Part shown: one piece after another, positions 46,827-47,069 of the stretch
How the letters are laid out: every line of letters begins with the position of its first letter
Numbering within the stretch: the first letter of the stretch is position 1
Assembly (NCBI GenBank): GCA_031260565.1
Contig: JAISLH010000016.1
Span: forward strand, 1 to 47,080
DNA from: Bacteroidales bacterium
Lineage (GTDB): Bacteria; Bacteroidota; Bacteroidia; Bacteroidales; P3
Direction of reading: 5' to 3'
DNA length: 47,080 nt
The notes under the pieces: model-generated
Databases searched by the model: none
What the model was told of the DNA's origin: nothing
The model's input: the letters and a program-made list of their open reading frames with translations, nothing else
Translations under genes and position numbers: made by a program

Positions 46827-46834
46827 TATATTTG
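46827..46834 (+). promoter_or_regulatory. -7 promoter box of gene carrying the AC tract
   Basis: TATATTTG followed by CA, 43 bases before the ATG at 46878. Confidence 0.68.
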
Positions 46835-46877
46835 CACCCTGAAACTTTTAATAAAAGACATTAAACAAGTACAGAAA

Positions 46878-47069
46878 ATGACGGAAACTATAAACATAAC
46901 CACTGAAAAAAACATCCAAAATAATTTGGATATATCGTTTATTTTCCGTATCTACACACACACACACACACACACACACACACACACACACACACACCAA
47001 CCATCAGACACCCCACCCACCCACATTTACAAATCAAAAAATGCAAAGGTAATAAATTTACCTCAATAA
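46878..47069 (+). CDS. Start of a gene with an in-frame (AC)22 tract, possibly phase-variable
   Basis: An ATG 43 bases after a good promoter box opens MTETINITTEKNIQ. At codon 26 it enters an AC tract that reads as alternating Thr-His, then continues QPSDTPPTH and stops at 47069 in the present tract length (63 residues). Deleting one AC unit, or adding two, would move the reading to the frame starting CCA ACC ATC, which stays open to the window end (28 codons). The gene may therefore be a switched-off longer one that continues past the window. No family recognised. Confidence 0.4.
   Translation: MTETINITTEKNIQNNLDISFIFRIYTHTHTHTHTHTHTHQPSDTPPTHIYKSKNAKVINLPQ
46954..46997. repeat. AC dinucleotide microsatellite, 22 units
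   Basis: An uninterrupted AC run of 44 bases, very rare in bacterial genomes outside contingency loci. It is placed 25 codons into an ORF. Confidence 0.97.
47044..47051 (-). promoter_or_regulatory. -7-like promoter box facing the AC tract
   Basis: TACCTTTG followed by CA on the minus strand would drive transcription leftwards across the AC tract. No minus-strand gene is visible there, so it may be a chance match or an antisense promoter. Confidence 0.35.

Follow-up and report, generated by a model that had tools for sequence, protein, structure and literature searches.

The question raised by this locus is what a long dinucleotide tract is doing inside the start of an open reading frame (ORF) at the very end of a Bacteroidales contig. 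The window, by which we mean the whole 47,080-nt stretch that was analysed, is an entire contig (C48) of a genome of 2.05 Mb in 133 contigs that is 99% complete. Near its right end TRF reports a repeat of period 2 with 22.0 copies and a 100% match, that is (AC)22 (Table 1), for which about 1e-20 occurrences would be expected by chance in a genome of such size. The initial annotation had placed this tract 25 codons into an ORF, and the coordinates bear this out, with the ORF extending over 46878-47069 from an ATG at 46878 and the tract setting in 25.33 codons further on. The same annotation claimed that the ORF ends soon past the tract in its present state, and that the loss of one unit or the gain of two opens a frame to the end of the window, and the computed frames agree on both counts. 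With the current 22 units the product has 63 amino acids and the stop codon is at 47067-47069, one added AC unit gives 58 amino acids, and two units more or one fewer (n = 24 or 21) leave the frame open up to 47080. The assembled copy is of the OFF class. Two properties of simple-sequence contingency loci are thus found in the window, namely a tract far beyond chance and a unit number that shifts the frame of an ORF. On sequence grounds, we consider it probable that the AC tract is a slipped-strand site within a translated leader that gates expression of the next gene, which lies off the contig.

Table 1. Features at the right end of the window.
Feature	Position	Strand	Basis or remark
tsaE, upstream gene outside the switch	46372..46797	+	Pfam TsaE, E 2e-36
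Promoter -7 region TTGTATATTTGCA, with TAnnTTTG box at 46827-46834	46824..46836	+	read from sequence
Pre-tract part of leader ORF (MTETINITTEKNIQNNLDISFIFRIY...)	46878..46953	+	frame analysis and homologous leaders
(AC)22 simple-sequence tract	46954..46997	+	putative slippage site; TRF
Post-tract leader sequence	46998..47080	+	aligns with AC-leader post-tract sequence in G002 and G003

The promoter that had been proposed ahead of the leader ATG is of the Bacteroidota type. Its -7 box TATATTTG matches TAnnTTTG, the -7 consensus of this phylum, and a box of the same type likewise lies upstream of the leader ATG at sister loci, while a generic sigma-70 scan gave a single match that was not above shuffles. 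The sequence that follows tsaE varies among the sister genomes G001-G003, and the leader is therefore no fixed neighbour of this gene. An invertible promoter was considered and is unsupported, in that the region 46372-47080 holds only imperfect arms of 10-15 nt, no clean pair of which brackets the promoter, and no long or near-perfect inverted repeats flanking it were found. A search for named RNA elements at the tract returned only miRNA and snRNA look-alikes on the AC run, far under the gathering score. Elsewhere in the window (41138-44530) is a gene for a protein of 1130 aa that carries a CHU_C type IX secretion domain and matches PKD and fn3 weakly, directly upstream of a PglZ response regulator gene whose product we take to be of the PorX type.

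With only 83 nt following the tract before the contig ends, the gene downstream of the window's leader is absent, and the contig end is shared with no other contig of the genome. A chimeric contig end was rejected, since the leader, the tract and the post-tract sequence all align with an AC-leader family of two sister species. (Another contig of this genome, C43, does appear to have a chimeric end, at L008 1364-1564, where a cut ftsH is joined to AC-rich, eukaryote-like sequence with the genome's second AC run.) The AC leader and its tract recur at seven further places in these two species (G002 and G003) with 75-80% identity, and the homologous AC leaders, seven in number, carry n = 22, 16, 14, 13, 10, 19 and 7 units. 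The AC-leader matches that bear names are the Bacteroidales MAGs Md513_bin13 and Md513_bin63; the Md513 MAGs were obtained from the termite Mastotermes darwiniensis, from its gut (PMC12483993). A viral or phage origin was rejected, as IMG/VR held no match to the tract-flank pattern and PHROGs none to the gene family described below.

Within the window's own genome (G000), a tractless relative of the leader on contig C9 (87% identity over 68 nt) is followed by a 21-nt repeat array and then by a gene for a 226-aa protein. The upstream regions of 21 genes of this 226-aa family have the same layout at many loci, often with poly-G replacing AC. Poly-G runs of at least 9 nt occur at 23 places in four genomes of the genus (G000-G003), and 20 of these are in leaders of the shared design; two others were discounted as a poly-C/G assembly artefact at the terminus of contig C39, beyond which the sequence runs on into a leader, and the last is within a different coding region, EF-G-like by eye. 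At the start of C39 (L134 1-90) about 70 nt of poly-C, probably an assembly artefact, stand beside the tract of a leader and a gene resembling those for phosphate transporters. Base composition predicts about 1.5 G runs of this length per genome, compared with six in leaders of G000. The four genomes thus hold 28 tract-bearing leaders, 8 with AC and 20 with G, and the genus accordingly has at least 28 similar tracts. Both censuses were pattern searches, with poly-G sought as exactly 9 and as 10 or more. Their common design is a promoter, a short ORF, a tract of (AC)7-22 or G9-16, usually a 21-nt repeat array, and then the gene, with tract length varying over these ranges among paralogues and species. 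Without exception the leader arrays span whole multiples of 21 nt; they specify repeats of 7 aa, and their sequences differ between loci. Intergenic arrays with a similar 21-22 nt period, seemingly without a leader ORF by eye, are also present in the window at 11702-12723, 16719-16765, 30166-30205 and 32504-32652. In other genera of the family poly-G is common in settings other than leaders, such as runs shortly upstream of promoter-like boxes in G017 (L151-L153) and G(10-22)-TAA elements scattered between genes in G012, G022 and G019 (L158-L165, L167).

For each leader the ORF was computed with the present tract and with one or two units added. At loci with a known gene, one length class usually encodes 100-190 amino acids and ends near the next ATG, and the other two classes stop early. 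At most loci the stop of the long frame falls between about -47 and +24 nt relative to the next ATG. The individual distances for 15 tract loci are 1, -32, -4, 15, 3, 3, 1, 57, -4, 1, 9, 13, -4, 161 and -44 nt, although chance accounts in part for stops close to the ATG, given how short and A+T-rich the stretch between array and gene is. Five tractless leaders picked by eye (C72, C60, C9, C29 and G2C67) are open and end 12, 24, 18, -47 and 35 nt from the gene; a wider and less selected set of paralogues includes several with a short leader ORF or none (G0C52, G1C23, G1C20). Long ORFs in an alternate frame downstream of the tract, which the initial annotation anticipated, are therefore present at the sister loci. 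An ordinary contingency locus, in which the tract is part of the switched gene, at its 5′ end, would be consistent with the window, where no stop interrupts the long frame before the contig ends, and with one locus of a genome from another family of the order (L189 in G048), where the leader frame continues into the gene as a 451-aa ORF. However, in all 15 cases in the genus where the gene after a tract is known, the long frame terminates close to or ahead of the ATG of that gene and is a different reading unit, and the next genes have conserved starts of their own, which makes this arrangement extremely improbable. The phase-variable contingency locus of the initial annotation is thus well supported by 27 sister loci, but the tract probably sits in a separate translated leader and not, as had been supposed, in the start of the switched gene.

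The openness of the long frame was compared between strands over a span that begins at the tract and ends 45 nt short of the gene (10 nt short at G0C120) or at the contig end. A stop-free frame is present at 24 of 27 loci on the forward strand versus 2 of 27 on the reverse, and over segments of at least 150 nt at 19 of 22 versus 1 of 22, counts that are not independent because the loci are paralogous (an estimated ten or so sequence groups). The openness of the arrays by itself says little, since their period of 21 is a multiple of 3, and the reverse-strand control includes the identical arrays. The first 99 nt past the tract are open at 24 of 24 loci, versus 11.7 expected from dinucleotide shuffles. 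At three of the 27 loci (G1C9, G2C28 and G3C41) the long frame contains a stop. Four leaders are at present in the ON class (G0C1, G0C120, G1C17 and G3C91) and the other 24, the window's included, are OFF; if the classes were random, four or fewer ON among 28 would have a probability of 0.021.

It could be argued that the leader is itself a functional phase-variable protein, with a THTH or poly-Gly segment followed by heptad repeats of 7 amino acids, and that the gene beyond is merely the next one in an operon; one frame does hold a long ORF, and arrays in multiples of 21 nt do encode 7-aa repeats. Nevertheless, in most leaders and in arrays the three codon positions have changed to a similar extent. 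Post-tract substitutions between paralogues show no third-position excess overall (for example 34/46/37 and 102/117/121 at codon positions 3/2/1), differences between units inside arrays number 68/84/75 at positions 1/2/3, and the sequence of the array varies by locus, all of which argues against a functional leader protein and leaves it very unlikely. The G2 leader group is an exception, with a third-position excess of 29/13/12 (29 of 54 substitutions at position 3). An even spread of substitutions over codon positions indicates that translatability has been kept and the peptide sequence mostly has not. The pattern hence suggests that in most leader groups, this one excepted, the open frame is mostly retained for translation rather than for a peptide.

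The next genes at sister loci include a family of helical and fibronectin type III (FnIII)-like proteins, an outer-membrane beta-barrel protein and DUF6261 proteins. The first of these is the 226-aa family, which has no match in Pfam, NCBIfam or PHROGs. AlphaFold2 models the 226-aa protein as a part with three helices plus a beta domain (mean pLDDT 88.6, pTM 0.53), and Foldseek matches the predicted beta part to fibronectin type III domains (best E 8.7e-4). Matches to this paralogous family number 16 in G000, 10 in G001, 5 in G002 and 17 in G003; in the order as a whole it is rare (4 of 149 genomes at E 1e-8). Two of three distant relatives of the 226-aa gene have an upstream ORF with amino-acid repeats, in both cases tractless. 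The gene missing from the window likely belongs to the helical-FnIII family, as the genome holds several family fragments without their upstream part. The earlier suggestion that such switches mostly serve surface structures finds partial support, in the outer-membrane beta-barrel protein at sister loci and in export-type N-termini in G048, the window's gene itself being off the contig.

How might tract length reach the next gene? Under the proposed mechanism, the tract-bearing leader would be transcribed from its own promoter ahead of the gene beyond the contig. Ribosomes in the long frame, which in the window requires n = 21 or 24, would pass the tract, the rest of the leader and a 21-nt array, as at sister loci, and would halt at or beside the start codon of the following gene. 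The gene could then be expressed in either of two ways: coverage by ribosomes may protect the mRNA from polarity, or the ribosomes that have read the leader may themselves reinitiate on the gene. In the remaining two length classes, translation would halt 80-500 nt upstream, and the gene would be turned down or off. Slippage in vivo, the effect on expression and any choice between the two couplings are what we infer from this arrangement. The gene starts are as accessible as ordinary ones in the window (probability unpaired 0.56 versus 0.54, local MFE -4.4 versus -4.1), so that restart is not obviously required and polarity is mildly favoured. By the same measure, sequestration of the start site by the array is unsupported.

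Alternatively, ribosomes in a long leader could melt an intrinsic terminator situated after the leader and ahead of the gene, an attenuation logic that is experimentally proven for the pil1 leader of Streptococcus gallolyticus (PMC3894217). A terminator-like hairpin is found in 6 of 33 leaders, compared with 0.8 in mononucleotide shuffles, and a weak element of the GGGGCTAATTTTT type is found repeatedly in one G003 group, so that attenuation may operate at some loci. However, such a hairpin is absent from the other 27 and from the window's leader, this leader and several others being cut by contig ends, and the open frame spans hundreds of nucleotides up to the gene, well beyond what melting a terminator would need. 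Hence we regard attenuation as unlikely, and favour a leader whose translation is coupled to the next gene.

The same layout is found with six AC tracts in G048. The long frame there reaches or enters the gene at four of the five tracts with a known gene, with stop-to-gene distances of 12, -23 and 11 nt and, for L189, either 29 nt or the fusion described above; at L192, with a distance of 109 nt, it does not. Next genes in this genome include those for proteins with export-type N-termini. Among 393 genomes of the order, the pattern TGT(AC)10 occurs only in G048 and one other. These sequences thus suggest that the genus of the window possesses a large number of gene switches that turn on and off at random. 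We give about even weight to the broader proposal that dozens of switches operate genus-wide, in which the length of a simple-sequence repeat (SSR) would gate a leader, mostly conserved only in its translatability, and couple ribosome transit to the next gene, and that a similar set has evolved in or spread to the family of G048. If this is true, four small genomes, of which two match MAGs from the gut of the termite M. darwiniensis, would contain at least 28 SSR-gated leaders, and phase variation would be a major regulatory mode in these symbionts. The leaders would also lend themselves to tests of polarity and of transcription-translation coupling in Bacteroidota, where one gene has three leader lengths that are one or two units apart.

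Contingency loci in Neisseria, Haemophilus, Campylobacter and Helicobacter typically carry the tract inside the switched gene or its promoter. The leaders described here resemble them in that the length of a long mono- or dinucleotide tract sets the frame, but differ in that the tract is in a separate leader with a mostly unconserved peptide. Closer relatives, at the level of the order, also switch host-interaction genes on and off at random, although by inverting promoters instead of by the repeat slippage proposed here; to our knowledge, promoter inversion is established in these relatives and repeat slippage is not. As judged by titles and opening abstracts, we found no paper describing the present design in Bacteroidota, and a recent review of phase variation contains none of the terms 'leader', 'untranslated' or 'translational coupling' (PMC11868660). 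By analogy, the closest proven case is the pil1 leader of S. gallolyticus. The pil1 and pil3 loci vary in phase through GCAGA repeats in a leader peptide, with a longer translated leader raising downstream expression and most cells in the low state (PMC3894217). Both there and here a short translated ORF that separates promoter from gene contains an SSR (the window's gene being off the contig), unit number sets the length of the leader, translation of the longer form raises the output of the gene (as proposed for the present leaders), and the low state prevails. The two differ in phylum and in repeat, a pentamer there and AC or poly-G here, and the intrinsic terminator of the pilus leaders is lacking in the window and in most of its relatives. 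Moreover, two pilus loci stand against a genus-wide set, and only the latter has the 21-nt array. SSR-based phase variation is itself already known; a leader-gated variant deployed across a whole genus is what we read as new in these sequences.
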